Origin: Crambe crambe
Taxonomy: Eukaryota > Porifera > Demospongiae > Poecilosclerida > Crambeidae
DNA length: 64,000 bases
Reading direction: 5' to 3'
Assembly (NCBI GenBank): GCA_963924555.1
Contig: OZ004587.1
Span: 1,612,001 to 1,676,000 of the forward strand
The translations under genes were made by a program, and so were the position numbers. Within the stretch, counting starts at the first letter, position 1. Every line of letters starts with the position of its first letter. The notes under the pieces were generated by a model that saw only the letters and a program-made list of their open reading frames with translations, searched no databases and was not told where the DNA came from. This document shows positions 1,987 to 57,201 of this stretch, one piece after another.

Positions 1987-2027
1987 TAATAATTATTGGC
2001 GCGCGCCATATACGTGTACTTGAGAAG

Positions 2028-3149
2028 ATGGTGTATTCCCACTATAAAAAGATGAGGATCCTCTATTTGACGCAGGAAGGTCACAAACCTCCTACCATTG
2101 CTAAAATCTTGGAAGAAGAAGGCATGAAGTGTAGCAGGAGTGGCATAGCAAAATTCTTGAAGAAGTATAGGGAAACAAGAACAATTGCCAGGCGCCCTGG
2201 AAGTGGAAGACCAACAAAAATAACAGAAGAGATTAAAAAGATTGTAGAAGAACAGATGAGAGCTGATGATGAGACAACTGCTCACCAGCTCCATGCTTTA
2301 TTGAACAGTAAAGGGTATGAGTTATCCCTTTGCACTATTCTCCGGTGTAGAACCGCTCTTGGCTGGACATTCCGTGGAAGTGCTTATTGTCAATTGATAA
2401 GAGAGGAGAATAAGCAAAAGAGACTGGGTTGGGCAAGGATGTATGTAGAGGAAGCTAAAACTGGATTTCAAGATGTTATCTGGTCTGATGAGTCCACTGT
2501 CCAGTTAGAATCTCACAGACGATTTTGCTGCAGAAAGATCGGTGAACGACCAAAGAGTAAGCCAAGGTACGTATGTACGTGTGACTGCAGTTGCTCAAGG
2601 TCAAAACAAATTATTTATTTAGATTTGGACTCATTATCTGTGTGTAGCTATAATAATATTCCTGATTTTCACTACAGGGCAAAACATCCCGTTAAGGTAC
2701 ATGTTTGGGCAGGCATCAGCTTAAAAGGAAGGACAGGTATATGTATTTTTGATGGGATCATGAAGAAGGAACTCTTTGTCCAAATTCTGGACAGAACTCT
2801 CATCCCTTTCATTCAGGATGTCTTCCCTGATGGATTTTGTAGGTTCATGCAGGACAATGATCCTAAGCACACTTCTAAGTACGCTATGGCCTATTTTGAG
2901 GAAATGGGAATCAATTGGTGGAGAACACCGGCTGAGAGTCCAGATTGCAATCCAATAGAAAATCTCTGGCATGAGCTCAAAGAGTTTTTAAGGCGTGAAA
3001 TCAAGCCTCGTGTAAAGCAGGAGTTAGTCGACGGGATTTTAAAATTTTGGGAAACAGTGGATGTTGCCAAGTGCACACGCTACATTCGTCATTTAAAAAA
3101 AGTTTTACCTCGTGTGATTGAACTGAATGGGGAGGCCACGGGATATTGA
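2028..3149 (+). CDS. Tc1/mariner-like DD34E transposase with an in-frame intron
   Basis: Cut-and-paste transposase of the IS630/Tc1/mariner superfamily. It would act in the nucleus on the element's inverted-repeat ends. An N-terminal paired-like helix-turn-helix region (about residues 1-75) ends in a basic GSGRPTK linker, then the RNase H-fold catalytic domain. The triad is visible: D in IWSDE, D in MQDNDPKH, and E in NPIENLWHE, with 34 residues between the second D and E. The ATG at 2028 is chosen over an upstream in-frame ATG (1968) because it aligns with the start of the homologue at 24,342. Positions 2567-2677 (GTACGT...CACTACAG, 111 bp) look like an intron. It is absent from the homologue, its removal restores the conserved KPRAKHPVKVH run, and it has no stop and is a multiple of three. 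No frameshift or nonsense codon is seen, so this copy may be functional. Confidence 0.88.
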   Translation: MVYSHYKKMRILYLTQEGHKPPTIAKILEEEGMKCSRSGIAKFLKKYRETRTIARRPGSGRPTKITEEIKKIVEEQMRADDETTAHQLHALLNSKGYELSLCTILRCRTALGWTFRGSAYCQLIREENKQKRLGWARMYVEEAKTGFQDVIWSDESTVQLESHRRFCCRKIGERPKSKPRYVCTCDCSCSRSKQIIYLDLDSLSVCSYNNIPDFHYRAKHPVKVHVWAGISLKGRTGICIFDGIMKKELFVQILDRTLIPFIQDVFPDGFCRFMQDNDPKHTSKYAMAYFEEMGINWWRTPAESPDCNPIENLWHELKEFLRREIKPRVKQELVDGILKFWETVDVAKCTRYIRHLKKVLPRVIELNGEATGY

Positions 3150-3228
3150 ACTCACATTACGTAGCTACTTTTTAATCAATGAATATTATATGTAATATGA
3201 GAGTCACAATGATAAACGTACGTACTAG

Positions 3229-5386
3229 TCAGTCTTTGTCCTTCCCCAAACGCAGCCTCTTGCAACCCTGTTGGACTGATTCTAAGCATTTTTTCCACAC
3301 TGGTTCAAATTCAACTGGATTATTCCAGTATTGTGGAAATCGTGAAAACATGGTTTTCTTCAATTGTTGCAGCTCTTTCGTAGGAAGGCCAGGCAGTTCT
3401 CGGTTTCCTATAGGTGTGCATTGCTTCATCACTTTAGGTCCAAATAAGGCTTCCTTAGCTATTTTGCAGGCCAAAGTCCCTGCCTTGCACTCTTCCTTCA
3501 ACTTAGGATATTTTTCTGTAACTTTTTCCACAGTTACGAGTTTGTCATTCTTGATGGCAGAAGAGGGAAGTGCTTTTGCAGTGGGAGGAAGCTTGGATAG
3601 GGGTAGTGGGGAGACGAAATTACTTGATGCATACCGTCGATTAGGTGTGGATGGAGCTGGTGGCTGAGATTTAGGAGGTGACTTTAGGATATTAGGGATA
3701 TTAGATGGTGAGAGGAAAGAGGAAGACTGGAAATCAGGGATAGGTGCAAACGTAGGATAAGGAGGGTAAGGAGTGGTATTAGGGAAAGGTAAACCACTAG
3801 AAGGAAGTGGAGATCGGAATGGATAGTGGTGATAGGTTAGCTGCTGTAGAATCTGTTGCTGAATATCCTCAACCCTTTTCATCCTGACCTCAAGATCCAT
3901 CAGTGACATCTGAATATCTATAATACAAATATGCACATACGTACGTACGTATTAGATGCTGCTTAAGCATTTGCTGTGTGTGTATAGTAGCTATGTACGT
4001 ATACGTATGCTATATTCACCTGATTCTGAAATACTGATTTTATTGTCATCATCATCACTTCCTTCGTCATCTTCCTCCTCGCTGTTTTCACTGCTTATGA
4101 TGGTAACAGGTGACACAGAGTGTGGTGTAATGATGGAATGAGAGCTGATGGACTCTGAGGCAGAGTTTGTGGTAGTTGTGGCAGTACTTGAAATAGAGCT
4201 GGTGATAGTTGAGTCTGAGCTAACGGAAGCATAGCTAGTGGGCTGAGAGTTGGTGGTAGTCATTGCAGTACTTGAAATAGAAGAACTGATGGTGGTTGAA
4301 ACAGAGTCTGAGCTGGTAGTAGGCAGGATAACTCCATGGTTTGAAACAGAAATAATTTCACCTGGAAGAAAATTTTTTTAAAAATCACCGACATGAAATA
4401 AAATTCCGTGGGAAGATAATTAGGCAAGCAAGCAAAGTGTGTATATCCAGCCTTAGAAATCCACTTGTGTATGATTATCGTACGTAGGTACGTACGTACA
4501 TACTTATCTAACCTTTCTTTTTTCAATTTTGTACTTTGTTGACTCCACTTCGGTTTTTCTTTTATTCTCTTTCCTTGCTTGTTTTCCTTTGTCCTCTTCT
4601 TTCTTCTTCCGTGCTTTGCCTTTTCCTTTGTCCTCCGCTTTCTCCTTCCTTGCTTTCTTTGCTGGTTGGGGTTCTTGGGGGAAAAATTTATAGCTCACTC
4701 ATTATTATAAATTCACATGATCCTCTCTTCCATTTACTACTTACCAATGGTCTTTGGTATATCAACATCAACATCATCCTGCCAGGTCATTCTTTCAAAC
4801 TCTTCATCAAAATCTCCATTGATGAAGTCATCCTCCTTTTCTTTCATCTTTGACTTCTCTCCTATGTACATACATACGTACGTAGGTGTAAAATACGTAG
4901 CAGTGACTTGTTAATACGTATTCAAAAGGATGTTGATAGTGTATCTGTTGGTTTCAACATACGTACCAATTGCCAAAATCTTGCCCTTGTAGCAACTACG
5001 ACCCATCTTCACCCTGCACTCATCTCCTGGAGTTTCTCCATCAAAAACAAACGATTTTGGCATCACGGACACCGAGTCCTCTCCAGGCCAAAATATCAAA
5101 CAGTATGACACTACATAATTAAGAAGCAATACTTCATGCTACTTGCATAATATACGGTGCTTAAGTGTAGCTTCACAATCACCAAGGTGCTACGTAGTAC
5201 TAGGTTTGCTAGCCACGAACGTACGAGCTAGTTAGCTACGAGTTAGCTAGCTACGTAGCTAGCTAGACATACGTAGCTGCTAATAAAGTTGCTACGTATC
5301 TTATAAACCTCAAGGTTCCAAATCTTACTTTTTGCTTCCATAGAGGTAGAGCTCAAGGCCTTCCTCAGAGACTGCCTGCAGGTCAT
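3229..5386 (-). CDS. Six-exon gene with SH3-like N-terminus and BEN-like C-terminus (transposon passenger)
   Basis: Proposed exons, 5' to 3': 5386-5329, 5110-4967, 4861-4745, 4673-4513, 4361-4020, 3917-3229, all with GT/AG borders. Exon 2 encodes a small beta-rich domain (FWPGEDSVSV ... YKGKILAIG), as in the N-terminal domain of some animal BEN proteins. Exon 3 is acidic, exon 4 strongly Lys-rich (nuclear-type), exon 5 Ser/Thr-rich with an acidic EEEDDEGSDDDD end. Exon 6 begins with a heptad-like leucine region, is Pro-rich, and ends in a ~110-residue BEN-like domain (KYPKLKEE...CKIAKEALFG...CTPIG...PVEFEPVWKKC...CKRLR). BEN domains bind DNA or partner proteins, so a regulatory or targeting role is inferred. 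The phase between exons 4 and 5 is off by one base, so a microexon or a base change may be missed. The order matches the gene at 25,922-28,888. Confidence 0.65.
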
Positions 5387-5601
5387 CTCACTGTTGTAGC
5401 TGTCGATATCTGTGAACGTTTTTTGCTGGAACTGCTGCGTGCTTTCATACCGTAAAAACGTTTAGTAATTTCGAATTCAACTATGCACGTTTAATTGGGC
5501 CGTTCAACGCAAAAGCGCTAAAACGCCTGCTTGCGTTTATAAAGCGTTGGCACACGGTTTTTTTTAAAACGGTTGAGCATTCTACGGCCGTTGTACGGCA
5601 A

Positions 5602-5632
5602 CGCAACGGAAACTTTTTTATGATGAAGACCG
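5602..5632. repeat. Right terminal inverted repeat of transposon copy A
   Basis: Read from the outside (minus strand) it begins CGGTCTTCATCATAAAAAAG and is followed on the plus strand by TA (5633-5634). It matches the left end of the MITE at 36,488 almost base for base. It also resembles the ends of copy B at 23,727 and 29,160. The flanking TACGTATG belongs to the adjoining 80-bp minisatellite unit, so the insertion was into that array. Confidence 0.75.
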
Positions 5633-7090
5633 TACGTATGATATTGCACACAATCTCACACAAAGGGATCGAGTATTGAGGTACTAATACTCTAGTGCTG
5701 CATGTATGTACATACACATGATATTGCACACAATCTCACACAAAGGGATCGAGTATTGAGGTACTAATACTCTAGTGCTGCATGTATGTACATACGTATG
5801 ATATTGCACACAATCTCACTCAAAGGGATCGAGTATTGAGGTACTAATACTCTAGTGCTGCATGTATGTACATACACATGATATTGCACACAATCTCACA
5901 CAAAGGGATCGAGTATTGAGGTACTAATACTCTAGTGCTACATGTATGTACATACGTATGATATTGCACACAATCTCACTCAAAGGGATCGAGTATTGAG
6001 GTACTAATACTCTAGTGCTGCATGTATGTACATACACATGATATTGCACACAATCTCACACAAAGGGATCGAGTATTGAGGTACTAATACTCTAGTGCTA
6101 CATGTATGTACATACGTATGATATTGCACACAATCTCACTCAAAGGGATCGAGTATTGAGGTACTAATACTCTAGTGCTGCATGTATGTACATACGTATG
6201 ATATTGCACACAATCTCACACAAAGGGATCGAGTACCGTAGGGTGGGTTAATTTCGTCAGGAAAAAATTTCGTCATATCCGGAATCATTGTACTAATGAA
6301 AAAATTGAATGGATAAATCTTCGCACATGCGCATTGAAGACGAAATTTTTCCCCCGCCCAGTTTCAGTTGAAGCACAAAGGCAGGTGGACTAGCTAATTT
6401 CGAGAGAGACACTTGCGTTCATGGCTATCACGAATACAAAGCTATTTGGGCTGCTGCTGTAGGAGAGGAGAGCGAGAGAACTAACTAACCTCGTTAGACA
6501 TCTTAATGTCTCTTATCTCTTCAACTGCACAGCACTGTTAGCCGCTTCTATAGCCTTGATGGTGTCAAAGCGGACAATGGTCCATCAGGATTGGAGAGAT
6601 CCCTACTAGGTGCAACTAACTATTTGGGAAGAGCCACGAGCAGCAGTTCTCTTACAGCAGTCTCTAGCTACGTAGCTCTTGCACGAAGCAACGATCTACC
6701 ACGTGTGTTGCGCAAAAAAATTTATGACAGTACAAATTATGACAAATAAAATTTCAACTCTTTATACCAACGGTGAAATAGACGAATTTTTTTCCCTGAC
6801 GAAATCAACCCGCCCTACGGTATTGAGGTACTAATACTCTAGTGCTGCATGTATGTACATACGCATGATATTGCACACAATCTTACACAAAGGGATCGAG
6901 TATTGAGGTACTAATACTCTAGTGCTACATGTATGTACATACGTATGATATTGCACACAATCTCACACAAAAGGATCGAGTATTGAGGTACTAATACTCT
7001 AGTGCTGCATGTATGTACATACGTATGATATTGCACACAATCTCACACAAAAGGATCGAGTATTGAGGTACTAATACTCTAGTGCTACAT
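5633..7090 (+). repeat. 80-bp minisatellite, ~11 units, interrupted by a MITE
   Basis: Unit: GATATTGCACACAATCTCAC ... GAGTATTGAGG ... CATGTATGTACATAC. Units start at 5641, 5721, 5801, 5881, 5961, 6041, 6121 and 6201 (cut at 6235), resume at 6821, then start at about 6868, 6948 and 7028. Alternating variants (CATACACATG versus CATACGTATG, TCACAC versus TCACTC) make a 160-bp higher-order repeat over much of the array. No ORF of interest. Confidence 0.92.
6236..6820. mobile_element. 585-bp Tc1/mariner-type MITE with TA target duplication
   Basis: Ends are inverted repeats: CCGTAGGGTGGGTTAATTTC on the left and CCGTAGGGCGGGTTGATTTC read from the right. It is flanked by TA (6234-6235 and 6821-6822). 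Removing it restores the minisatellite sequence GATCGAGTATTGAGGTAC. No transposase ORF inside. Superfamily call rests on the TA duplication only. Confidence 0.9.
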
Positions 7091-7145
7091 GAATACTTGC
7101 TAGAATCTCTCCTCAAAAGTTAGAGGCATCTACTGTGTATAATAC

Positions 7146-7257
7146 CTAGATTTCTTAGTGCTTGATGCTTTTCTTCTTCCTTTTCCTTCAGTGGCTCTTC
7201 CTCCTCCACAAGGCAAGCTAGCCCCCCCTCCAAGTTTCCTCTCCAGCACTTCCCTCA
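7146..7257 (-). CDS. Duplicate basic exon of the gene at 7796-8439
   Basis: Minus-strand block bordered by AG (7258-7259) and GT (7144-7145). It is related to the 3' part of the exon at 7796-8042: both read ...E-x-G-G... then a Gly/Arg/Lys-rich AT-hook-like tract ending KKSR/KESR at the donor. The open frame needs a phase-1 acceptor and leaves phase 2, as the 7796-8042 exon does. It therefore cannot follow that exon in frame and looks like a mutually exclusive or decayed duplicate. The intron bases after each donor are also alike. Confidence 0.4.
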
Positions 7258-14989: not shown

Positions 14990-15862
14990 TGGCACTACAG
15001 GCATTCCTGCCTTACTGATATTAGAGGCATTCTGACATTACGGACATTACGGACATTACCTGCCTTACTGACATTACAGGCATTGCCTGCCTTACTAACG
15101 TTACAGACATTATCTACATTACTTGCCTTACTGACACATTTTCCTTACCAACATTACAGGCATTACCTGACATTACCTGCCTCACTGACAGTATACTTGC
15201 CTTACATACATTACTTACATTATATTATTACCTACCTTACTGACATTACAGGCATTACCTGCCTTACTGACATTACCTGCCTTACCGACATTACAAGCAT
15301 TACCTGCCTTACTGCCTTAGCTACCTGCCTTACTGACATTACCTGCCTTACTGACATTACCTCTCTTACTGACATTACCTGCCTTACTGACATTACAGAC
15401 ATTAGCTATACCTGCCATACAGATATTACAGACATTACCTGCCTTACTGACATTACAGATATTACCTGCAATACAGACATTACCTACCTTACATACATTA
15501 CTTACATTACCTGCCTTACTGACATTACAAGCATTACCTGCCTTACTGCCTTACCTGCCTTACTGACATTACCTGCCTTACTGACATTACAGACATTACC
15601 TGCCATACAGACATTACAGACATTACCTGCCATACAGACATTACAGACATTACCTACCTTACATACATTACTTACACTACCTGCCTTACAGACATTACCT
15701 GCCTTACCGACATTACATGCATTACCTGCCTTACAGACATTACCGACATTACATGCATTACCTGCCTTACAGACATTATCTGCCTTACCAACATTACAGG
15801 CATTACCTGCCTTACAGACATTACCTGCCTTACAGACATTACCTGCCTTACCGACATTAGGC
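14990..15862 (+). repeat. Degenerate minisatellite, left half
   Basis: Reiterated CATTACCTGCCTTACTGA and ACAGGCATTAC motifs, about 870 bp, continuing after the CACTA-ended element at 19,449-19,830. All three forward frames are nearly stop-free, so long apparent ORFs here (for example 15,083-16,000) are artefacts of the repeat. Confidence 0.92.
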
Positions 15863-23350: not shown

Positions 23351-23361
23351 AGTAGCTGATT

Positions 23362-23724
23362 ATGCAATGCCCCCCCCCCTCCTCCCCCTCCAATGCAGGA
23401 CTGGGAATCGTCCCTCCACCTCAGCTCTTGCTTGGAGTTCCAATGATTGGTACAAGCACAGTTGATTCCACGGCAACACCCCCTATGACAACCCCAGCGA
23501 TCATCCCCAACTCATTGCCCGAACCACTTCCAACGTGGAACATGCCCCCGACACTGTCTCTTCCCCCGAAGATGATCAAAAAGATTCTCAACCTCGAGTT
23601 TGTTGACATGAGTGAGCTGCTCCAAGACTCGTGGAGGCCACAAGAAGAGGAGCACAAATGCTGTCACCAACGGCGGGGACAACGAAGAGGGCCAATCACT
23701 GACATCCTAGTATGGGTGGAGTGC
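23362..23724 (+). pseudogene. Retrotransposon gag-like ORF, 5' part
   Basis: Pro/Thr-rich N-terminus followed by a conserved-looking block (IKKILNLEFVDMSELLQDSW ... ITDILVWVECY). The frame is interrupted at 23,725 by the two-gene transposon. The flanking TA falls in the TAC codon of the final Y, and the same frame continues on the far side from 29,161. It would package the element RNA. The start codon is uncertain. Confidence 0.65.
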
Positions 23725-24341
23725 TACGGTACTTTGCAAAAAAAACTTTGCACCATGCTCGTGACAGTTCACGAGACACTTGTTACGAGGCTTACCACAA
23801 AGGAAATATATGAATTGGAGGAGCCTACCACAGGGTCGTGAGGTATTATGTTAGCAGTTCATGAAGGTCGCGAGGTGTTATGATAGCAGTTCATGAAGGT
23901 CGTGAGGTGTTATGATAGCACTTCTTAAATGTCGTGATACTTTGCGAGCACTTCACGAAAGTGCTGGCTTTAAAGATTGAAGCGCTGGTGCAGAGCTCTC
24001 GTTACTTGAATTTCGAATTCAGTGAGAAGATACTAACGCTGTCACTGCCTGTTTAGCTACGTACATTTCTTGTTTCAGTTCTTCAGGAAAAGGTATGTTA
24101 GTTAGCTATAGATGCATGTTTCTTATAGCGAACTAGCTATTATTCACTGACTATAGTTTCTCACTGAACAACCGAATGTAGCTAGCTACTGCATGATGTT
24201 GATCTGCACTGTTTTACTCGTTTTTTGTTTTATTTTTTTGTGTTTTTGTTTTTTTGTTTGTTTTTGTTTGTTGTTTTTTTGCATTTTACTAATCCATTTC
24301 CCCCCCTTTATTACTAGTCCTACCATACTGTGCAAATAGGC

Positions 24342-25348
24342 ATGGTTTTCAGTGACTACACAAAGCAGAGGATCTTAAGCTTATCCCTACAAGGCTTCAA
24401 AGTCACAGCAATTGTGGAGTGCCTTGTCCTAGAAGATGAAATTCTTGTGTCAAAACATGGAGTAAGGCAATTCTTGAAGAGATACCACAGTTCTGGAACT
24501 ATTGCAAGAAAACCAGGATCGGGACTACCACCAAAGCTTTCACCTCGTATTGAGAAGCTGATTGAAGATATAATGCGCAATGATGATGAAACAACAGCCA
24601 CTCAACTCCAAGGATTTTAGCTAATTGCAGTGTTTATGTTTCTTTGGCTACTATTGTCAGAAATCGATGTAATCTTGGATGGATTTATCGCGGCTCAGCT
24701 TATTGTCAGCTTATTCGCAATGAAAACAAAGTGAAACGGCTTCAGTGGGCACAAGCTAATCTCTATGACACGTTTGAGGATGTAATTTGGAGTGATGAAA
24801 CCACTGTACAACTTGAGAATCACCGCCGCTTTTGCTATCGAAAGGAAGGGGAAAGACCCAAGCCAAAACCTCGTCCTAAGCACCCCATTAAAGTGCATGT
24901 ATGGGGTGGAATAAGCAAGAAAGGTGCCACTCCAGTGTGCATTTTTGAAGGCATAATGGCAGCACCATTGTTCTGTGAAATTTTGGATCGCACATTGCTC
25001 CCATTTATTCAACAAACTTTTCCACCCCCAAATACGCACAGGTTTATGCAAGATAATGATCCAAAACACACTTCTCGTGCAGCCCAGGCTTTCTATGCAC
25101 AGAAAGGAATCAATTGGTGGCGTACACCAGCTGAATCTCCAGATCTTAACCCAATAGAAAATCTCTGGCATGAAATGAAGGAGTATATCCGAAGGGAAGT
25201 TAAGCCTACCACCAAGCTTGAATTAGTGAATGGTATCAATGCATTCTGGGCAAAAATTGACGAAAATAAGTGCTGTCGCTACATCAATCATCTACAGAAA
25301 GTCTTGCCTCGGGTTATAGAAGTTAATGGTGATGCCACAGGCTATTGA
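24342..25348 (+). pseudogene. Tc1/mariner-like DD34E transposase, one frameshift
   Basis: Same protein type as 2028-3149. It has an N-terminal helix-turn-helix (MVFSDYTKQRILSLS...), a GSGLPPK linker, then the catalytic domain with D in IWSDE, D in MQDNDPKH and E in NPIENLWHE at DD34E spacing, ending VNGDATGY. The frame breaks near 24,615: the first part ends TTATQLQGF-stop, and the second frame continues ANCSVYVSLATIVRN. Loss of one T from a short T run explains it. It lacks the intron seen in copy A. AATAAA lies about 75 bp past the stop. Otherwise undamaged, so recently inactivated or a base-calling error. Confidence 0.88.
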
Positions 25349-25921
25349 AGATTAGCTAATACAGCTATCTATACACTCATATTCAACACACTGAACAGTA
25401 TACATTTTGTTGCTTAATAATAATAAAGATCTTTTTGCTGCTGTGCTGAGACTATAACTAATTATTATACACGCACTCCAAATGCAAATTAAACCACACC
25501 AAAAATTCAGTAGCTATTTCTTACTACATGATTAGTTCAGATTCTGATGGTCACCCAGAGTTCAAACTTTGCTTAGGCAGTTCAAAATAGATTACTGGTT
25601 TAACAGATTTCCCTGCCCTATTTTGTATATCATGATATACTGCTTTACTAGAATCCCAGTATACTGCTGTTAATCTTTGTATACTAGAACACATGACCCA
25701 TACAAACTCAGAGATGCCATTACGCATAGTATACTAAGGTAGTTTATGTTTTGTCCTCCCTGCATCCCTATGAGAAGGGAGAAAAATCCATAATTATTTT
25801 GGAATTGCCTTAATGATCAGAAATATACCCCCATTACCAGAAACAATAGAAATCAGCAATGAATAATAGAGCTAATATCAGCAGTTAATAATAATCAACA
25901 TAGCAGTGAATAATGCAGTAC

Positions 25922-28888
25922 TCAATTCTCAGGAAGAAGTTTCTTGCGAGCACTGTTTCGAAGAGTTTGACATGACTTAGAAAGTGAGAGTCTGCACATG
26001 CTCCAAATGTTCTCAAAGTCAACCAACGACTTCTTTGGAACTCTAGAATGGACAAGTTGCTTGATATACCGGACTTTCTCTTGGCTCAAAACACCAGTAC
26101 CTTTTCTTCCACTTAAGCTGCATTTTGAGAGTGCTTCACGTCCAAATATTGCATCCCTTGCTAAAGCAACTGTAAGTGATCTTAAGCTGGCAATGTCCTT
26201 ACCAGGGTAATTCTTCAATACCTGCTGCACAGAACACAATTTTGGAGGTGTATCAAACGGTGGTGGTATAGCTGGTGGCTGAACTACTTCTTCTCTTGAA
26301 GCCAGTGGTGACTCTGAAGCAGTCGAGGCTGGAGCCCACATATGATTACCTGATGGCTGAAATGTGACCTCTGCTCTTTCTATGGGTTGAGCTAATGTAT
26401 GATCAGCTGGTGTGATCCCAGAACTGCGTGGAGCTAATGTACTATCAGTATTGTCTGTATCCCATGTCATGTAATCAGAGTCCTCTCCTGCAGTATCATC
26501 CCACGAAAATTCATCCAGGATGATGCAGTCACCTTGTTTTTGTGAACCATTGGATGAGGTTCCACCTCCCACACGGGAAGTGCCTTCAGAAGATATTTCT
26601 GAATGATGTGAAAAAGAGGAAGATGGGTCAGATAATGTTGGAGAGAAGGGTTGAGGTGACTGAAATTGCTGGGTAACACCATCGGAAGGATGAGGAGTTG
26701 CTAGATGCGAAGACCGGTGAGACAGTAGCTCAAAAGGTGATTGCTGAGCTGATGGCTGCATGTGAGTCGATGACAGCTGAACTGATGACAACTGGGTATT
26801 GGAGTGGTAAGTTGACGGCTGAGATGGCTGGAAGTTATCAGACTGGGAATTATGAGAAGGTTGGGAATAGGCTGGACTGAACGGCTGAATGTTTGGTCGA
26901 GATGACTGTGAGTGGACTCGGTATTGAGTTGAGATGTTTGGGAAAAGACTGCTGTCACCCTGAGATTGCTGTGAATAAACTGGAGTTAGCTCATTGTGTG
27001 ATAGAGATGGTTGGGATGAAAGAACAGACTGGAGGAGCTGAGTTGAAGGTGTAGTTGCTGCCTGTGAATATCTGACATTTGCTGGCTGAGAGTTAAGCTG
27101 AGAATGATTTGTACTTAATTGCTGAGAATGAGTTGGGGCTTGGGAACAAAGATTGAGGGGCAGTTGCTGTAAAAGTTGCTGAAACAAACCTGGAGAAGAC
27201 GAAAAATTGGGCAATTGAGATGACTGAGTCTGAGGCTGAAGTGGTAACTGTGATTGTGATTGGTGAAGAAATTGGAGTAATTGTTGAGGCGAATTCTGGG
27301 TGACTAAGTTAACGGGAGATTGATATTGAGAGAGAAGAGCGGTAGCTTGTGATTGCTGCTGTAAAACCATACTCGTCAATAGAGTCATTAGTTGACCTTG
27401 CTGTTCAAGAAGCCGAGAAACTATGGAGAGAGAAAAAAGATACATAACAATCTCCAAATGAGACATCACATACGTGCATCATTTATAAACTTAGTCACCA
27501 TGGATCATCATAAATGCCATTTAACTTCCCCCAAAATAAGTAAGATCCCCCTCCAAAATCGATATCCTAGATATGTATAGAACCTTGCATGCTTACTGAA
27601 TGTGTTGTCACCTCCAGGAATGCCAACTGTGTTGTCACCTGCAGGAATGCTTGAAACTGTTGGCTTTTCCACAGTTGCTCCTGCATACGAAACATTGTAA
27701 TACTATATAGACCTCCCAATGGCCAAGAAAATCCTGCACAGAATTAGCTCTCACAATTACATACACAATATAGACATCAAAGGTCTGGCATGCAATGACT
27801 AAAACAACAGTGGTGAGACAATAGCTTTAGCTCTCATGCATGCACCCACAACTTAGCACACTCATGCTATGCAATGGCTTCATTATGCATGCATGGTCAA
27901 CAAACCTTTCCTTTTCTTCTGATGAGCACTACTCCCTGAAGCTAAAATTAGAGAGCAAATATATATAGGTCATCTTGGCATAATGTCAACAAAACCCACC
28001 TAATTCCCACAACTGGACTACCAGTTAGAGAATATATATACATTAATTAGGTCAATTATGCTTCAAGAGAGAGAGAGAGAGAGAGAGAATAATATACCTG
28101 TAGTTGAAGGTATATAATCCCCACCCACTGTGATGATGCTGCCTTGCTTCTCTGCAAGAATGGAAATAAAATTAATAATAAAATACGACTATAGTTTAAA
28201 TACGTATATACTCACTTTGTTTACTGGCTATGGCTTTCTTCTTGGGTGGCCTTCTCTTTTGTGGTTTTTTAGCTGAAAAGATAAGCCATGTATACATTAA
28301 TTACGAAGGCCTCCCATGCAGAGTGAACTTACAAGGAGTTTTTTCTGTGGATGATTCAATGATCACTCCCTTCCATACCTCAGTTTTGCCACCAGTTTCC
28401 CAAGGCAGCTCTACAGTCTTTCCTGGTACAAGCTCTTCTTTCTTGTACAGGGACTCCATAAATTCTGCATCCATCACGATTTCACGTCCATCCCATTTCT
28501 GTGAGCCATTTCCTTCATATCTGATGTAGTATTGAGCTGATTTAGATGCTACAATTCGCTTAGAGCGAGTAACAGATGGTTTAGTTGCTGCAGTCTTTCC
28601 ACCATTATTTGCTGGAAGGCTTGTTGGTTGGCTTTCTGACTGCCCACTCTGCTGATTTGTTGGCTGACTTGCTGGCTGGTTTTCCTGCTGGCTTGCTGGC
28701 TGGCTTCCTGGCTGGCTTCCTGGCTGGTTTTCCTGCTGGCTTACTGGCTGGCTTCCTGGCTGGCTTCCCTGCTGGCTTGCAGGCTGGCTTACTGGCTGGC
28801 TTCCTGGCTGACTTCCTGGCTGGCTTGCAATTGCTGGCTGGCTCGCAGGTTGCTGGACAATCTGACTTGCAGGCTGCCTTATGTCCAT
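25922..28888 (-). CDS. Six-exon, 761-residue SH3-like/BEN-like protein carried by transposon copy B
   Basis: Exons: 28888-28333, 28272-28216, 28151-28098, 27941-27906, 27680-27597, 27420-25922. All five introns have GT/AG ends and are phase 1; the exons sum to 2,286 bp (762 codons) with no stop. Residues ~5-95 are a QPAS/QPGS repeat. Residues ~116-182 form a small beta-rich domain (YYIRYEGNGSQKW ... ELVPGKTVELPW ... VWKGVIIE). Exons 2 and 4 carry basic motifs (KRRPPKKK, QKKRK). Exon 6 has a leucine-rich start, a long Gln/Ser/Pro tract, an acidic patch and a C-terminal BEN-like domain (VLKNYPGKD...ARDAIFGREALSKCSLSG...FENIWSMCRLS...CQTLR). BEN domains bind DNA or proteins, so target choice, regulation or end-binding is inferred. 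The intact frame beside a broken transposase is notable. The ATG at 28888 follows an in-frame TGA. Confidence 0.8.
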
Positions 28889-29162
28889 GACTTTAGCAGC
28901 GCTGGCTCACTTGCTGGCTGGAATTGATTCACTGTTTGAGAACTGGTCTCGCGAATCTGTGGTTTTGAGCCTTGCCCATAGTCGCGATACGGTCTCGCGA
29001 AGCTGTGGTTTTGAGCCTTGCCCACAGTCGCGATCAGCCTCGCTACATGGTTTGCCTCAGTTGACAAGTGCTTCCTTCGTTGAGGGCGTGATGGACTGAG
29101 TGGCTCGCGAACCAATGGAGCTGTCGCGAGATGGTGCAACGTTTTTTTTGCAATCTACCGTA

Positions 29163-29660
29163 CTCGTCTATGGTGGCTGTACTCTCCTCGAGATATGCAA
29201 ACAAAACCCCCCACTTCATGGCTTACCAGCAAACCATAGTGAAGGCCCATCGTGCATTCACAGGAGAGGGGTGGATTGCTACAGAAGGAAGGCAGCAACC
29301 CTAAAATCTCTGGATTGGGGCACAGTTGACTTTACCTGTACAACGAAACATTCACTGGCCGGGAAAAATCAATCCCATGTTGCCGCCATTGCCTCAGCGA
29401 GCACCACCCCTCACATGAATGCTCATATGCTCCAGAAGATAAAGCAGACCTAGCCTACCACACTGAACAAGGACGGTGCCCATCTGTCAGTTATACAATG
29501 GGAAGAATGGAAATCGGTGCAACTTCCACCCATGCAAATTTCAGCATCTCTGTGCAGAATGTAGGGGAAATCACCCTGTGGTCTACTGCCGCAGACACAA
29601 GGGCTCCATTGCTAAACGGCCAAGATCTCAATCTCCACCATACAATCCAAAAATAAAATA
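29163..29660 (+). pseudogene. Retrotransposon gag-like ORF, 3' part
   Basis: Continues the frame cut at 23,724 for about 45 codons to a stop, then shifts frame at least once. The 3' end (29,476-29,661) encodes a Cys/His cluster (CQLYNGKNGNRCNFHPCKFQHLC ... C-x2-C-x3-H), typical of the zinc-binding tail of DIRS/Ngaro first ORFs. The segment is degraded. An untranslated stretch of ~230 bp separates it from the RT ORF. Confidence 0.65.
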
Positions 29661-29893
29661 ATTAGACCTGACAGCTACCCGCTATTTACCTAATTGATTC
29701 TAGTTCTTATTCATGTTAGGCCCCACTCTGATTTTTGTAATTTCCACCTGAACGGCGTGATCGCCCATCCAATGGGATATGGCTTCATAGGCCTATGGCC
29801 GCAATCAGCAAACTTTATACAATCTATTATTATGAGACCCCCCTTTAATTTATACCACGTAAATTAATCAGCAATTAGACAGGATATTATTTT

Positions 29894-31771
29894 ATGCTAA
29901 TAGGTGGGATGTATGCATATACACATGACTTGATGGAATTGAGTGCCAATGTACAGAAAGGGCCAACTGATCATCGCATGGGTAGCATAACAACACCCTT
30001 GAAGCTATTGGCATGGAAGAGAATGTTACAGCACCACCCAGACCACGATTTTGTGCACTACATCTTGTTAGGCATTGAACGAGGGTTTCAGATCAGAGTG
30101 AATAGGTCAAAAGGGCTAACATCGGCAAAAAAGAACATGCAATCAGCAGCTCAGAATCCAGAGGTCATAGAAGAGTACTTGCAGAAGGAAATGGAAAAGG
30201 GTAATATCTTAGGCCCATTTTCCCCAAGCATGATGCCAGTAGTTCATATCAACCGCTTTGGGGTTATCCCCAAAAAACACCAGCCAGGCAAATGGAGGCT
30301 GATAACTGACCTATCCTTCCCAGAGGGGGCCAGCGTGAACGATGCTATAAACAGCCACCTCTGCTCATTAACATATATTTCAGTGCTCAATATTGCAGAA
30401 GCCGCCTTTGCATTGGGAAAAGGGGCTTTAATTGCCAAAATCGATATAAAGGCCGCATACAGACTTGTGCCAATCTCTCCATATGACAGGCCACTGCTGG
30501 ACATGAGGTGGAAAGATCAAGTATACATTGACGGGATGCTGCCATTTGGCCTTAGATCAGCCCCAAAAATTTTTAACACCCTCACAGATGCCCTTGAATG
30601 GTTAGTAGCCAGAGAAGGTGTTCGTTACATCTTCCACTACCTGGATGACTTCGCAGTCGTTGGCCCCCCAGACTCACAGGAATGCCAATCTGCTCTGGAT
30701 ACCCTGATAAGGATCTGCGACCTGCTAGGAGTACCACTAGCACCGGATAAGCAGGACGGGGCCAGCTCAACAATAACCCTCCTGGGGATTACAATTGATA
30801 CAGTCAGGCAAGAGTTGAGGCTGCCAGAAGATAAGCTACAGCGCCTGGTCAGCCTTGTTTCTGAATGGGAGAATAAAAAATCATGCACCTGGCGGGAACT
30901 GGAATCACTGATTGGCACTCTACAGCACGCTAGTACAGTAGTCCTTCCTGGAAGATCATTCATGCGTCGTGTCATCGCGCTACTAAGCGTCACAAAGCAG
31001 AGGCACTACCATATCCGCCTGAATAAAGATTTTAGGTCAGACATCTGCTGGTGGAAGAGCTTCGCAATGCACTGGAATGGGGCCTCTTTACTCATCCATC
31101 ACGGCTGTGAAACAGTGGAGATGACGTCAGATGCATCAGGCAGCTGGGGGTGCGGAGCATGGCATGGTGCAGATTGGTTCCAGCTCGCGTGGGATAGCAA
31201 GTCACAGCTCCTACAGATAGCTATCAAGGAACTAATCCCAATAATAATAGCTGCAGTGGTATGGGGCTGTAGGTGGAAAGGCCAGAGGGTCAGGGCCAGA
31301 TATGATAACTCTGCGGTGGTAGCAGTAATTAATAGTCGCTACAGCAGAGACCCCCACTTGATGCAGATGCTTAGGTGTCTATTCTTTTTAGAGGCATATT
31401 TGCAATTTAGAGTCTCAGCAATCCACCTACCAGGGATCGACAATGAGTTAGTTGATGACCTCTCAAGAAACCGGGTTTCATCCTTTTTAGCTAGGAGGCC
31501 AGAACACATAACCCACTTTGATCCCACCATCTCTCTTACAGTGGCTGCTGTACCCGAACCTGGACTGGACCTGTCAGCCCTGGATGGAACAGTTCAATTC
31601 TTTTGTGCTCAAGGCATAGCAGATTCCACCCGCAAGTCATCGCTACGTAGATTCTATAATTTTTGTGAATCATATTCCATTATTACCCCTTTCCCTGTTT
31701 CTGAATCTGTGTTATGTTACTATGCATCCCACCTAGCTTCACAACGGCTCTCACCACAGACTATTAAAAAA
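29894..31771 (+). pseudogene. DIRS/Ngaro-type reverse transcriptase-RNase H
   Basis: The polymerase domain shows the expected blocks: KWRLITDLSFPEG, AKIDIKAAYRLVPI, LPFGLRSAPKIF and the catalytic FHYLDDF. RNase H motifs follow (TSDASGSWGCGAW, IKELIPIIIAAVVW, ARYDNSAVVAVIN, IHLPGIDNELVDDLSR). It copies the element RNA into DNA. The frame stays open to 31,831, but from an A run near 31,775 the conserved sequence moves to another frame. The first ATG at 29,894 is only the start of the open frame. Confidence 0.88.
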
Positions 31772-32528
31772 ACCTTGCCGGCATCAGGCATATGCAAATC
31801 ACTCTGGGGCTACCAGAGCCAAAAGAGTTGATTGCGTCTGGTGCAGGCAGGGATAAAGAGGGTCCATTCCCAACCCACGCCTCTCTCGTCATGGATCAGA
31901 CTGCCAATAACCCCAGCCATTCTTAGAAGAATCCACTCGCATTGGTCCACTAAGGCAGCGGATCCTGACATTGTGATGCTGTGGGCTGCAGCAACACTCT
32001 GCTTTTTTGGATTTTTTTCGATCAAGGGAAATCACTGTTCCAACCATCAATAGCTACCAACCAGCAGTACACCTAAGTTGGGGGGACGTAGCAGTAGACA
32101 ATCCTAAAGACCCAACACTGATACGAGTGAAGCTGAAACGTTCAAAAACAGATCAGCTAGGCAGGGGAGCAGATGTGTTTATTGGAAGAACCCGATGTCC
32201 TATCTGTCCCGTAGCAGCAGTATTGGCATACATGGCCAGCAGAGGAGTAGCTGAGGGTCCATTCTTCAGGTTTCAAGACAGTCGCCCTCTGACGAAGTCC
32301 ATTTTCACGCAGAAGATATACTCTGCCCTACAAGAGCTAGGTCTCCCTTATCAAGAATTTGATGGCCACAGTTTCAGGATTGGGGCAGCCACAGCAGTGG
32401 CCAAAGCAGGCGTTGAAGATTCAACAATCAAGATGATGGGCAGATGGAGTAGTGCGGCCTTCCTCACCTACGTCAGGACACCGCGTGAACAGTTAGCCCA
32501 GTTTTCTTCCACCCTCGTTCACCCTTAA
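31560..32528 (+). pseudogene. Tyrosine recombinase of the Ngaro/DIRS-like element
   Basis: Follows RNase H without a separate start. The N-terminal core-binding part (about 31,590-31,770) leads into a catalytic part broken by frameshifts near 31,775, 31,845 and 32,012 (a T run). Catalytic motifs are visible in 32,007-32,528: LKRSKTD (first Arg), GHSFRIGAAT (H-x-x-R), MGRWSS and FLTYVRTP (Tyr nucleophile). Such recombinases integrate a circular DNA intermediate in place of an integrase. Three frameshifts make it non-functional. Confidence 0.88.
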
Positions 32529-36099: not shown

Positions 36100-37556
36100 A
36101 GATCATTGCAGCACAAAGCCTCCCACAAAGCTGCTTTAATTGTATAAAGATTGTTCTGCTTGGTTTAGGTTTGATGTAGGGATTATTATTGAAGGCAGCA
36201 TAATTTTGATTCTTGTTGACAGAAACTGTTATAGTGCAGACTAACCCTACATGACCTTTTTATTTAGCATAATTTTTTTTCCTTTCACTTGTTTACTTTT
36301 GTACGACCTAAAGGTTGAATATTGTTTTCAAGTAAAAATAGCTGGTAGGCATGCGCATACGTGCACATAATAGTCAGTGACAGATGCACGTGCATGATAA
36401 ATGATGTCATTTAAAAATGGCTGACAGTTATAATGCTGAAAAATCGTTCGATATGAGTGATTATTTTGAAGGGAAACTGTGGATATACGGTCTTCATCAT
36501 AAAAAAGTTTCCGTTGCGTTGCCGTACAACGTCCGTAGAATGCTCAAGCGTTGTAAAAAAAACCGTGTGCGAACGCTTTATGAGCGCAAAGCAGGCGTTT
36601 GCATTGAACGGCCCAATTAAACGTACGTAGTTGGGTTCGAAATTACTAAACGTTTTTACGGTATGAAAGCACGCAGCAATTCCAGCAAAAACGTTCATCA
36701 GCAGCAGATCGACAGCGAGATGACCTGCAGGCAGTCTCCGAGGAAGGCCTTGAGCTCTACGTAGCTAGATATCGACTTGTGCATGCTAGTGGTGGTACAA
36801 TTTCTTCTGCCTTCATCGTGTCTGTAAAGTTTCATCTCACTGATAATAGAACATCATGGTGGTGTTATACTATAGCTAGCTGTAAGTGCAGAACTAGCTA
36901 GCTAGCTAGCTCTAGTGCCAACATAAGCTAGTCAGCTTAGAGAGATAGCTAGTCAGCCTAGAGAGATAGCTACGCATAGTTCTATAAGCTTTTAGGCTTA
37001 GGGTTACGTTTTGTAATAACGTTTTTTCACCTACGTACGTACATGGCTATACTTCTTACCGTTTCTTCGTGAACGTTGAACAGGCGTGCAACGCTTGATG
37101 TTAAACGGTGTAGAAAATTAAACGCACGGGGGACTGTGTGAAAACGGCAACGGTCAAGGCGTGCAACGCCAGTTCTACGTGGACGGAACGGGAACTTTTT
37201 TTTGCAGCCTACCGTAACAATGGCAAAAGCACATTGTGTGGTTATAACTGCACAAGTTGATAGGAAATTGAAAGGATCATGGAGTTACAGCCGTCAAATA
37301 TTAAATTTTATTGATGATGAACAAATCATAAAAATTTTAGATTTAGGTGTGGCTGGTGTCGATCATTGACGCTGTTCTGGAGGAGTTTGAGTGGTCATAT
37401 CATCATTTTCTGCATTGTTTTTCAGATGTAAGAAGTTTAGTTGAGCCTATAGCAAGAATAGAAGAGATACGGAGAGTCTAGTTTGTATTGTTCTAATGAG
37501 AGAAGCCATGCCCATTCCGTACTAACCCTACATAGAGAGTGCTACCGCACTCTCTG
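36100..37556 (+). mobile_element. Hairpin-ended family R2, copy a, with nested MITE
   Basis: A GTAGGGATTATTATTGAAGG arm, an ACAAGTG-type motif (inverse) near 36,290, a body, then the 3' stem-loop at 37,534-37,555 preceded by AACCCTACAT and followed by GA|T. A second copy runs in reverse at 61,805-62,545. The two copies align along their length except for the 727-bp MITE here. Short open frames in it arise from the MITE and are not supported as genes. Confidence 0.8.
36488..37214. mobile_element. 727-bp MITE derived from two-gene transposon copy A
   Basis: TIRs CGGTCTTCATCATAAAAAAG on the left and, from the right, CGGTAGGCTGCAAAAAAAAG. It is flanked by TA (36,486-36,487 and 37,215-37,216). 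The empty site is the R2 copy at ~62.17 kb (inverse: GTTGATATAACGATGG). Its left ~290 bp correspond to 5632-5345, that is, the TIR, leader and first-exon region of the BEN-like gene. It is thus an internal-deletion derivative that keeps both transposon ends. Confidence 0.92.
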
Positions 37557-43780: not shown

Positions 43781-46193
43781 TAATATAAAATTTTACAGCA
43801 AATGATATGTGCATGGCATGGTAAAGTGAGCTGACTACACTACAGCCAAGTACTGGCTATAATACTACTATAAGATGAGCATCTGTACTGTAATTCAGCA
43901 AGAAGTGACTGGAACATCATCAGAATATAGCTAGCTAAATTAACGATCTAAGAAGCTTACGTGGCTCTGCCAATAAGTGCCGCCCCCTACCGACGTGCGC
44001 TTCAAAATGGCGTCGAAAGATTAGCTAGTGTTCTGAGTGCTCGAATAGTGAAGTAGAGCCTTAGTCAAAACTAATAGCAAAAGATCAGCCTCTAGGTGCC
44101 GCTCTAACAGATGGCCAAAGCAGAATTTTGATGACTATAGCCAGTAAGTCGGTACGTCGATCTTATTATTATTATTATTATTATTCATAAGCTAATTTTA
44201 TGAGAACTAATTCTATTGAATTATTATTATTATTATTATTATTATTACAAGTGAATGCAAAAAATTTCTTCGAAATAAAAATGTGAAGTAGGGATGCTAT
44301 TATAACTGCAGCTTCATTATGAAAACCAAGTACTGCAGCATCGAAGCAGTATGGCCCAAAAATCTAGCTGGAATATGTATTATAACTGCATGCAAGAGAG
44401 TGAACTTAGTGAAGTGACCCTTACCCATCATCAAGTACGAGATACTATTCCTACTTCACTCCCTTGGCCCTTGATCATGGGAGTGAAGTAGGAATAGTAT
44501 CTTGTACTTGATGATGGGTAAGGGTCACTTCACTAAGTTCACTCTCTTGCATGCAGTTATAATACATATTCCAGCTAGATTTTTGGGCCATACTGCTTCG
44601 ATGCTGCAGTACTTGGTTTTCATAATGAAGCTGCAGTTATAATAGCATCCCTACTTCACATTTTTATTTCGAAGAAATTTTTTGCATTCACTTGTTTGCA
44701 TTCTTTTTCTTTGTGATTATGAAAATTGATAGACACTAAAGGCTTCCTTGATTGAACTAAATTTATTTAATGATCAGTATTTCATTCTGTTCAGGGAGGA
44801 GAGTTTGAAGGATGATCATCTGCAGTGTAATGGAGTACTGAAAGGAGTGAACATTTTAAAAAGTGAACAGCATTAGCTAATTGTTGCATATGTGATCACT
44901 GAAATAATTATTGAGATGGTACGTATGTCTTGCTTGAGGGAGGAGTATGGGGAGTTTATGCATTTGGTGTAGTGATCATAATAGTGGATGCCATCAAATG
45001 GCCACATCCTGTGCAGGTGTTATATGAGGAGAACTGCTATTAATTGCCCCACCCCTTTTATGAGGTGATATCGCGAAGATTTTTTTCATACGAGGCTGCA
45101 GCACATTATAGATAGCCCAGCTAGATTTTAGGCTATCCCTACTTAACCTTTTTATTTGAAGAAATTTTTTACGCTCACTTGTTTCTATCCTTTTTCTTAG
45201 TGCTTGAAGTTGAATGAGGGAGGCTACAGTACAGTACTATACAAAGCCAGCTGTACATAAACCTCTTTTGTAGGTACATACAGTGTCTCTGGTTGAAGAA
45301 TTTGTTTAGCTATTTAAGTTTTGTTGATATAAAACTTTACAGCAACAGCAATGTAAATGACATGTACACGGCATGGTGAAGCGAGCTGACTACACTACAG
45401 CCAAGTACTGGCTATAATGCTACTATAGGATGAGCATCTGTACTGTAATTCAGCAAGGAGTGACTGGAACATCATCAGATAATGAATGAAGACCTTGGCT
45501 ATAGCTAAACTTAAGCTTACGTGGCTCCGCCCATAAGCCCCGCCCCCTTTAAAATGGTGTAGAAAGATTAGCAGTGTTCCGAGTGCTATCGAATAGTGAA
45601 GTAGAGCCTTAGTCAAAACTAATAGCAAAAGATCAGCCTCTAGGTGCCGCTCTAACAGATGGCCAAAGCAGAATTTTGATGACTATAGCCAGTAAGTCGG
45701 TACGTCGATCTTATACATTATTATTATTATTATAAAGAAAAAGAACGAAAAGTCAATTTTAGAACTCGTTTTTTTCTTATGTTGGCGAATGAATTTTCGG
45801 CTTTTGAACATTCTCCTCTCTTCTTTGTAGATATAATAATTCACTGTAGCCTTCTGAGAACCTGTAGAGTGAGAGTAGAAGAGAAAGAAGAGTTTTTAGT
45901 TTATACTGTCCTATGGACTTTGACCTGCCATCCCTACTTAGAGAGTGCTACCGCACTCTCTGATTATGAAAAAGAACAAAAGTCAATTTTAAAACTCATT
46001 TTTTTCTTATGTTAGCGAATGAATTTTCGGTTTTTGAACATTCTCCTCTCTTCTTTGTAGATGTAATAATTCACTGTAATCTTCTGAGAACCTGTAGAGT
46101 AAGGGTAGAAGAGAAAGAAGAGTTTTTAGTTTATACAGTCTTATGACCTTTGACCCACCATCCCTACTTAGAGAGTGCTAGCGCACTCTCTGA
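43781..46193 (+). mobile_element. Composite foldback/hairpin element, copy 2
   Basis: Same order as 1-1986: body (about 43,781-44,187), (ATT)n, foldback (44,247-44,695), a diverged body-like stretch, the single arm of FB1 (45,085-45,175), body (45,176-45,715), (ATT)n, then two hairpin units (45,733-45,963 and 45,964-46,193). Hairpins lie at 45,940-45,961 and 46,170-46,191, each followed by GA|T. It interrupts or abuts the DIRS-like remnant on its left. Confidence 0.8.
44247..44695. mobile_element. Foldback FB3 (217-bp arms)
   Basis: Arms 44,247-44,463 and 44,479-44,695 are inverse copies with almost no mismatch around a 15-bp loop. The outer end is ACAAGTGAATGCAAAAAATT. Inside are AGTAGGGAT and TATTCCTACTTCACTCCC motifs, the latter shared with the F2 foldback at 59.7 kb. 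A 449-bp near-perfect palindrome is a strong cruciform candidate. Confidence 0.93.
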
Positions 46194-50680: not shown

Positions 50681-52590
50681 GAGTTGACCCCATACCAAGT
50701 AGAAAAAAGGCAATAAGTCTTATTCATACAAGTAAGGGAAAAAGCATTTCGTGAAATGAAAAAAGATGTAGGGATGACCACTGCTCAAAAAAGTAAGGAA
50801 ACAAGAAGGATGGAAATGGGATCAATCTTTGTTCTGTATATCCAGCCAACAATCCCTACATATACATCGGGTAGCTTCAGGTAATGTACGTATATGTAGG
50901 GATTGTTGGCTGGATATACAGAACAAAGATTGATCCCATTTCCATCCTTCTTGTTTCCTTACGTTTTTGAGCAGTGGTCATCCCTACATCTTTTTTCATT
51001 TCACGAAATGCTTTTTCCCTTACTTGTTCCTGGTCTTTTTTTCCTCTCTTTTATGGTTTTAGCTATGTATAGAGTTCATTCTTCTATGTGTATGCAGGGA
51101 CAGATGAAAGAAGAATAGTTCTCCAATAGTTCTCCAGCATACCAGCCCAATCATTATCAACGAGTCAAGGTGTTGTGTTATTGTTGAGCTATACTTGGAG
51201 GTGGAAGGAAGATGCTGAAATAGTAAATCCCCGAGCCAATACAGTAATCTATCATCATTATGTAGAGCTAGCTAGCTAGCTAGCTAGCTAGAGACAGCTG
51301 AGTAATATTATAATTTCGAATAATTGGATATCAAATATATGCGCATGCGTATTATAGAAAAGATGGCTTCCTAATTGAATTAGTCGAGTGCTGTGCTCCG
51401 TAGTGTCTCCTTTTTCATCGACTCTTTCGAGGATCAACGAGTAGAAAAGATCGTAGTTTGTAGAATTTGGAGTGGATTTATCCATAAATCATAGCTGTAG
51501 CTTGAGTGGTTCGAGAGACATGGTTGTCTAAGAAGAAGAATAATAATAGAGAAGAAGAAGAATCCAACGATTTACCTGCTTGCCGTATTTCTGAAATGGT
51601 AAGCTCCCTGGTCCTGAAACTTGGTCTGCACATTGTAGTAGGCTCTAGTAGGCTGGATAATCATTCACAGTAGCTTTTGTTAGGTCTAAGTGGGGGAACT
51701 AGAATTTCACTTTTGTATTAGTGTATAGGCGGCGCGCGCGGCCGTCCGAGTCATCACTACATAGAGAGTGCTACCGCACTCTCTGATTAACAATGTATGC
51801 TTTTTTTACATTACAGATGTGTCACTGAGAGAAACTGTTAAGGCAATAATCATTTAAAAATATTATTTTGTGGTCAGGGAGCTCTCACTAGTGTCCCAAG
51901 TCACAGATTATTGAAGCTGGAAGGCCATAACCTGATAAAAGATAGGAAACATTTCCATAATACAAGTAGTTGATTATGACCTAACTCTTTTGGTCAGCTA
52001 TTAATACAGATGATAGTTAAATACTCATCTGAACCATATATTGCCTGTAGACAAGTCTCATCTCTGTCTACAATCAAGGCTTGTTGCTACAGGAGAAAGG
52101 TAAGGAACTCTGCTTGCATGTGTTCTTAGATTGCATGGTAAAGATCGTCAACATGGAGACAGTAGTACTATTATCGATGATAGTAAGCCTAAAGCTGACT
52201 AGATACTCACCTGAACCACATAATGCCTGTACACACTGCTGCTTAGCAGAGTCTCATCTCTGTCTGCAATCAAGGCTTGCCGCTACTACAGGATAAAGCT
52301 CAAGAACTCTGCTTGCAATTGCACGTGTTCTTAAATTGTATGGTAAAGATCGTCAACATGGAGACGGTAGTACAATTTCTGACCTGATGCGCAGTCCAAA
52401 ACGAAGTAGAGTTAGGCGCTCTAAGTTAATAGCATGAAGAAGAGCGAAGTTGCTTTACAGATCCATGATGGCAACGAAGCGCTGAGGTACTCAGGGAAGG
52501 ATCGCGCTTTGATTATTTATTTATTTAGATTACATTACGTATTTTCTTATTTTTTTCTACTTGGTATGTAATTTTTTTGAGTGCCAGGGC
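50681..52590 (+). repeat. Repeat family R3, copy a, split by R1b
   Basis: R3 ends are TTGACC.CATACCAAGTAGAA and inverse. This copy begins at 50,681, is interrupted by R1b (50,728-51,786), resumes at 51,787 and ends near 52,590 (CTACTTGGTATGTAATTTTT). The body contains two tandem versions of a ~170-bp segment (CATCTCTGTCTRCAATCAAG ... GATCGTCAACATGGAGAC). Two more copies lie at 56.36-58.03 kb in reverse. Non-coding; class unknown. Confidence 0.8.
50728..51786 (+). mobile_element. Hairpin-ended family R1, copy b (complete)
   Basis: Foldback 50,728-51,027 (outer end ACAAGTAAGGGAAAAAGCAT, arms holding GATGTAGGGATGACC), body with a (GCTA)n run near 51,268-51,292, AAGAAGAA/TAA tract near 51,530-51,572, 3' unit (51,575-51,762), stem-loop 51,763-51,784, GA. 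Flanked by T (50,727) and T (51,787) inside repeat R3; the sister R3 copy at ~57.98 kb shows the uninterrupted sequence. No ORF of interest. Confidence 0.85.
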
Positions 52591-53510: not shown

Positions 53511-53517
53511 GTTGCTA

Positions 53518-53625
53518 TGTTCTAAATAAGTTAGGCAACTTGACCAACGGGATCTAAGTTATTTAGAGACCCTTGGGCCCTCGGGTCTCTAAATAACTTA
53601 GATCCCTAGGTCATGTTGTCTAACT
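53518..53625. repeat. Hairpin repeat paired with 55,380-55,475
   Basis: A stem of about 25 bp (GATCTAAGTTATTTAGAGACCC / inverse) at 53,550-53,607. The adjoining TTGCTATGTTCTAAATAAG recurs in inverse orientation at about 55,450-55,472, next to a similar hairpin. These could be two copies of one small element, or the ends of a ~1.9-kb element spanning the fibronectin exon. Confidence 0.6.
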
Positions 53626-53760
53626 ATTATATAGTTATCAGTAGCAGGTATACATGTGGTAGGTAGTATGTATACTGAAAATAAATACATTGGTATTGCC
53701 TATTATCACATTATTATGGCAGATTATTATTATTTACCGGAAGATACCAATGAAGACACC

Positions 53761-56360: not shown

Positions 56361-56364
56361 TCAA

Positions 56365-57130: not shown

Positions 57131-57201
57131 ATATTGTAAATATGAATAAGATTTATTGCCTTTTTTTTTCCTACTTAGTATGTGGTCGAGTCTTGAAATT
57201 A

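Follow-up and report, generated by a model that had tools for sequence, protein, structure and literature searches.

Transposition that needs a single protein is classically illustrated by the Tc1/mariner transposases. Pogo elements are reported to carry one or two transposase-encoding open reading frames (ORFs) (PMC7386202). The TBE elements of the ciliate Oxytricha have three ORFs, the accessory two encoding a 22-kD protein whose function is unknown and a zinc-finger/kinase protein of 57 kD (PMC4724952). TBE is the nearest precedent within the superfamily that we saw among the literature searched, in which no published Tc1/mariner element with a BEN gene was found, Repbase, preprints and most subscription papers lying outside this scope. 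We analysed a 64,000-nucleotide stretch of the genome of the sponge Crambe crambe (G000:C10:1612001-1676000; hereafter the window), which contains a Tc1-like DD34E element at 23727-29160, flanked by TA on both sides. Between its ends lie a transposase gene and a second, multi-exon gene encoding a predicted BEN domain. A preliminary description made from the letters alone had reported this pair; the observation is confirmed and is larger than first described, as the two-gene plan is a trait of a family of elements. The window element is organized as follows.

23725-23726, unstranded: left TA target-site duplication; a single TA stands at the uninterrupted paralogous site L061
23727-23770, plus strand: left terminal inverted repeat (TIR), CGGTACTTTGCAAAAAAAAC..., from local alignment and genome copies
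23727-24025, plus strand: left subterminal region, with one TCGCGA (23868) and several TCGTGA/TCACGA forms
24342-25348, plus strand: Tc1-like DD34E transposase, frameshifted, in two frames (24342-24614 and 24614-25348)
25922-27420, minus strand: BEN gene exon 6, with a coiled-coil-like start (by eye), a Q/S-rich stretch, an acidic DSDY motif and the BEN domain
25940-26266, minus strand: BEN domain, predicted to bind DNA
27597-27680, minus strand: BEN gene exon 5
27906-27941, minus strand: BEN gene exon 4
28098-28151, minus strand: BEN gene exon 3
28216-28272, minus strand: BEN gene exon 2, lysine/arginine-rich
28333-28888, minus strand: BEN gene exon 1, with an SQP-type 12-bp tandem repeat followed by the conserved N-terminal domain
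28355-28573, minus strand: conserved N-terminal domain (Y.IR..GN.S..WDG.EI), with a weak Spin/Ssty match below the cut-off
28949-29129, unstranded: right subterminal TCGCGA array, with sites at 28949, 28982, 28995, 29028, 29105 and 29124
29118-29160, minus strand: right TIR, from local alignment
29161-29162, unstranded: right TA target-site duplication

The inverted ends are ~44 bp long and their tips read CGGTA.... In a local alignment of the left end (from 23725) with the inverted right end (to 29162), 40 of 46 columns are identical, TA counted. Such ends, with TA on both sides, had been proposed at the outset, and the insertion site bears them out. The genome (143 Mb, 119 contigs) has 14 Wnt-family matches, against none in 14 control genomes, as expected of an animal host. 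Searching it with the left flank returned four matches, the window itself and three others, which were aligned to the joined flanks. One of these, L061 (G000:C10:3.928 Mb), is continuous across the junction with one TA, and this unbroken alignment shows insertion with duplication of TA; the remaining two aligned poorly over the junction. TA is also present at both ends in all six copies compared from the window element's own subfamily (A, see below). The element sits in a retroelement-like gene region (window 23356-23724 and 29163-31831), and to its right lies a 650-aa reverse-transcriptase frame (29879-31831) whose end looks recombinase-like by eye only.

The transposase matches Pfam DDE_3 (E=3.2e-23, over the cut-off), its N-terminus gives matches below cut-off to PAX (E=0.0011) and HTH_32 (E=0.00096), and the spacing from the second D to the E, counted by eye, is 34. 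With a DDE transposase, a TA duplication and TIRs shared among copies, the element is a Tc1-like DD34E member of Tc1/mariner. It departs from the single transposase gene that is usual for, rather than strictly definitive of, this superfamily (compare TBE). The window copy had been called complete, wrongly, because its transposase is frameshifted, the frame being split around 24.6 kb. A single open transposase frame of 343 codons is found in three other copies, C10b (C10:5.92 Mb), C12a (C12:3.15 Mb) and C12b (C12:6.96 Mb).

The second gene was correctly described as a six-exon gene tail to tail with the transposase: on the minus strand, it comprises 761 codons and five GT-AG introns, every one in phase 1. 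This intron pattern was established for subfamily A, the genes of subfamilies B-E being modelled for the last exon and the N-terminal domain. The encoded accessory protein has a conserved domain at its N-terminus and a BEN domain at its C-terminus, with a basic stretch and a Q/S-rich linker between them. Against Pfam BEN (PF10523), the window sequence scores 18.3 and 21.0 bits, under the curated cut-off of 23.2, and, of 38 sequences in the alignment (36 database proteins, two from the window), 31 match at E<=0.1, the best at 1e-6. Searching PDB sequences with A1, the window piece and A3 as queries returned no BEN match except BEND3 rows (E 0.06-0.15), which ranked under two unrelated endonuclease rows. 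The predicted structure of the domain matches BEN domains and is BANP-like; on this model the C-terminal domain has the BEN fold, and the name 'BEN-like' stands.

The N-terminal domain is conserved, with 10 invariant columns across nine copies. Spin/Ssty repeats are Tudor-like, and a Spin/Ssty match in the window copy (E 1.5e-4, 21.9 bits) raises the alternative of a targeting or chromatin factor, in which a Tudor-like N-terminal domain would read a histone mark while the BEN domain tethers the transposition complex. The conservation fits such a role as well; against it, the match lies under the curated cut-off of 25 and recurs in only one of three further copies scanned (E 0.15), and we regard this alternative as improbable.

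We next consider how widely the two genes travel together. The TIR pattern, with two mismatches allowed, matched the genome 96 times, compared with twice for a reversed control; 49 of the 96, by our own count, are subfamily E-type ends of the TACGGTAGGCYGC type. The 19 best-scoring distinct transposase loci were examined (17 fetched from the genome and two in the window). In 17 of these, a BEN match lies tail to tail with the transposase, on the opposite strand and beyond its 3' end. At L045 the BEN match is 6.6 kb further on (L026); counting it, 18 of 19 loci have both genes, while no BEN match was found at L039, a broken transposase on an 18.9-kb contig. Among weaker transposase rows, BEN matches lie near C19:3180635 and C3:879212 and none near C3:750876, C58:3428 or C70:8441. 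Of the rows at 22-30% identity, which represent other Tc1 families, at least two (C8:4730485 and C19:3187479) are within 5 kb of BEN matches, and we assign those BEN matches to copies of the window element's two-gene family. Finally, 15 of 18 genomic matches to the N-terminal domain are placed at element copies with a matching end; the three unassigned matches are at C3:2796613, C12:5613524 and C5:5096204, and the end check leaves out some decayed BEN fragments (for example, C11:5517609, C5:4810767 and C5:5054765). The reverse pattern, mostly transposase-only copies together with a BEN gene at a host locus free of TIRs, had been named as the outcome that would speak against a two-gene element; the genome shows the opposite.

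The copies fall into subfamilies A (including the window element), B (the C13 pair, C10c, C17, C5b and C8a), C (C3c and C8b), D (C12c) and E (window 1986-5634 and C9), with both ends of elements seen in A, B, C and E. Complete copies measure ~4.2-5.6 kb, or 7.8 kb where an insertion is present. A copies differ by 0.6-1.2% substitutions. Of six A copies compared, three (window, C12a and C12b) retain an open second gene together with its splice sites, and both genes are open in two (C12a and C12b, the latter lengthened by ~2.2 kb close to its right end); exon 1 length changes shift the BEN frame in C10b and C5, exon 6 of C10b also contains a stop, and part of C3a is deleted. In subfamily B, the copies at C13:2.129 and 2.193 Mb are identical over 4,659+116 aligned bases, one being ~120 bp longer. 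Their match ends within 3 bp of the element ends and their flanks are unmatched, indicating that both genes moved together, and recently. We also considered an artefact of nesting, in which a host gene happens to lie between unrelated inverted repeats. The many copies with different flanks, the single-TA empty site and the C13 pair rule this out, and we assign it a negligible probability.

The window holds a further member of the family:

1986-5634, plus strand: second, distant family member (subfamily E), with similarity to its C9 relative beginning at 1986; transposase at 2028-3146 (plus) and BEN domain at 3235-3567 (minus)

The left end of this member was not found. Elsewhere in the window, an apparently non-autonomous element of 731 bp (36486-37216) has the subfamily E ends TACGGTAGGCTGCAAAAAAAA and TACGGTCTTCATCAT.

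Both proteins show constraint. Among subfamilies A-D, the proportion of synonymous differences (pS) in the BEN domain is 0.74-0.92, which is saturated, while the proportion of non-synonymous differences (pN) is 0.22-0.31, rising to 0.49-0.53 in comparisons with subfamily E. Corresponding values are pN 0.31-0.43 and pS 0.70-0.78 for the N-terminal domain, and pN 0.19-0.20 and pS 0.75-0.77 for the transposase, compared between A and B only. The proteins have therefore been retained for a long time. Across nine pairs, distances in one gene correlate with those in the other (Mantel r=0.93; 0.83 without E), although the test leans on E and on one near-duplicate pair, without which r=0.44 (p=0.025).

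At E<=1e-10, a database search returned 3,151 relatives of the transposase. For the BEN C-terminus there are 39 distinct ones (38 with a subfamily B query and two with the window query). The two totals are not fairly comparable, since divergence is faster in the BEN protein and the BEN search was length-restricted. For 4 of the 39, the longest contig has the same size as that of one of the best 120 of the 3,151 transposases, to which these comparisons refer (4,574; 32,159; 441,300; 656,817; pairs P0033/P0124, P0014/P0126, P0112/P0142 and P0051/P0152), and so the two genes very probably share contigs in those four pairs. No relatives turned up in the viral contigs collection with exon 6, the transposase or the BEN alignment as query. 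In the genome contigs collection, the transposase query had no match and the BEN alignment matched a single decayed BEN fragment, L062 (LWTN01000127.1), filed under a Cycloclasticus symbiont metagenome-assembled genome of a Poecilosclerida sponge; it has neither a transposase match nor TCGCGA and presumably reflects host contamination.

The sponge genome also contains BEN genes of other kinds. A Pfam BEN search returned two loci at E<=0.01, neither from the element family. At G000:C5:5.609-5.638 Mb, where the TIR-pattern match list has no element ends, L049 and L050 both encode a pair of BEN-like domains within a single open frame; by eye, these resemble the subfamily E BEN domain, and they may be relatives of the captured gene. 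A further BEN locus of another kind is at C3:2.906 Mb (C3:2905920). Related host genes, the fact that transposons do capture genes, and the sufficiency of the transposase alone for most Tc1/mariner elements would suit a passenger, that is, a host BEN gene captured once and carried without any role in transposition. A passenger conferring no benefit should decay or disappear. We therefore disfavour this explanation, and consider it very improbable, given that the BEN domain is conserved as protein over saturated synonymous sites in A-D and that the gene is present in 18 of the 19 copies examined and probably on shared contigs elsewhere.

The ends of the elements suggest what the second protein might do. 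TCGCGA is the top hexamer there, with 22 occurrences in six ends and none in 13.3 kb of interiors, counting a single copy per subfamily from A (C12a), B and C and taking ends as 25-300 bp from the tip; by subfamily, it ranks first in A, second in B and 21st in C. With 350-bp ends, the window copy has one site on the left, none in the interior and six on the right, and the C12a left end has sites at element positions 144, 176 and 218. Sites fall near positions 35 and 45-46, plus 56 in one B end and in D, roughly a turn of the helix from one another; in B and D the first sites are spaced ~10-11 bp. In subfamily A, the right end has TCGCGA at 34 and 53, and the left end TCGTGA and TCACGA at 35 and 45. 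The arrays reach into the TIRs, and both genes begin just inside them. Of the functions first suggested for the second protein (targeting, end binding or silencing antagonism), end binding gains from these arrays.

We examined whether the ends are merely CpG-rich or young. With the motif masked, the observed/expected CpG ratio of subfamily A ends is 0.31-0.39, against 0.32 in the interior; CpG is therefore kept only within the motif, and this trivial explanation is rejected on an argument that holds for subfamily A, since masking leaves a residual excess in B and C (0.64-0.89) and nearly the whole excess in E (1.43-1.46). Subfamily E, which has the most diverged BEN domain, lacks a TCGCGA array and has other repeated words (CGTTG type).

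Human BANP binds TCTCGCGAGA, TCGCG and TCTCG sites with only moderate specificity, and is reported to work via CGCG motifs located at transcription start sites (PMC10206803). A host BANP-like factor might thus read TCGCGA as promoter elements, the element's own BEN protein serving otherwise, for example in local chromatin change or repression. This would suit the position of the two gene starts and the other BEN loci in the genome (for example, C3:2905920 and the C5:5.6 Mb cluster). It fits less well with arrays that run into the TIRs (first site ~35) at the regular first-site spacing of B and D, with an element that has its own BEN gene and a BANP-like predicted fold, and with the pairing in subfamily E of a diverged BEN domain with different end words. 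Overall, we judge a host reader unlikely, if less so than a targeting factor.

We favour, at slightly better than an even chance, the reading that the product of the second gene is an element-encoded subterminal binder working in the manner of TnpA of En/Spm. The transposase would bind the tips and cut. The BEN protein, made from the element's opposite end, would bind the TCGCGA array just inside both tips. The array sites occupy the first ~35-270 bp at either end, overlap the TIRs and precede both genes. From there the BEN protein could help the transposase by pairing, exposing or activating the ends, and it would probably tune both promoters, expected within or beside the arrays, as TnpA does for TnpD. 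Binding to the ends, which we infer from the arrays and the predicted fold, is a prediction for which support is good in A and B, weak in C and absent in E. A broader proposal, to which we give a little less than an even chance, is that an animal Tc1-like lineage independently evolved the En/Spm plan, with a captured BEN factor as an obligatory or strongly stimulating second protein. This protein would read end arrays that evolve together with it in every subfamily, and might keep host silencing from closing the ends. If true, a conserved lineage with a DNA-binding gene and matching end sites would mean that Tc1/mariner can evolve a two-protein system, and BEN proteins would gain a clear mobile role. 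The family would then offer a defined system for tracing how an end-binding protein and its sites co-evolve across subfamilies.

The window contains other repeats. Long tandem arrays with 9-bp (TTACCTGCC-like) and 80-bp units lie at 15000-15800 and 5553-7222, and near-perfect large inverted repeats at 44247-44695 and 52018-57836, examples being a pair of 220-nt arms separated by 9 nt and a pair of 327-nt arms separated by 4.7 kb.

Set beside known systems, the family shares with the Tc1 clade (IS630-Tc1-mariner, DD34E) a DDE_3 transposase with a weak PAX-like N-terminus, D-34-E spacing, TA duplication and short inverted ends, but differs in its second gene, its size of ~4.2-5.6 kb and the TCGCGA arrays in A, B and D ends. 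TBE of Oxytricha likewise combines Tc1/mariner with accessory genes, one of them inverted, under purifying selection, but has no BEN domain as described (PMC4724952). BANP and BEND6 are cellular transcription factors, with structural-alignment identities of 17% (BANP) and 12% (BEND6) to the element's BEN domain; they resemble it in predicted fold, and the element ends carry the CGCG-type motif (PMC10206803). En/Spm (CACTA) belongs to another transposase superfamily, has a plant host and CACTA ends, whereas the window element has CGGTA... ends and a TA duplication, and BEN binding in the window family is a step that we infer. Its TnpA and TnpD nevertheless provide the same combination, a transposase and a multi-exon DNA-binding second protein with subterminal repeat sites (PMC2613891, PMC8195511).

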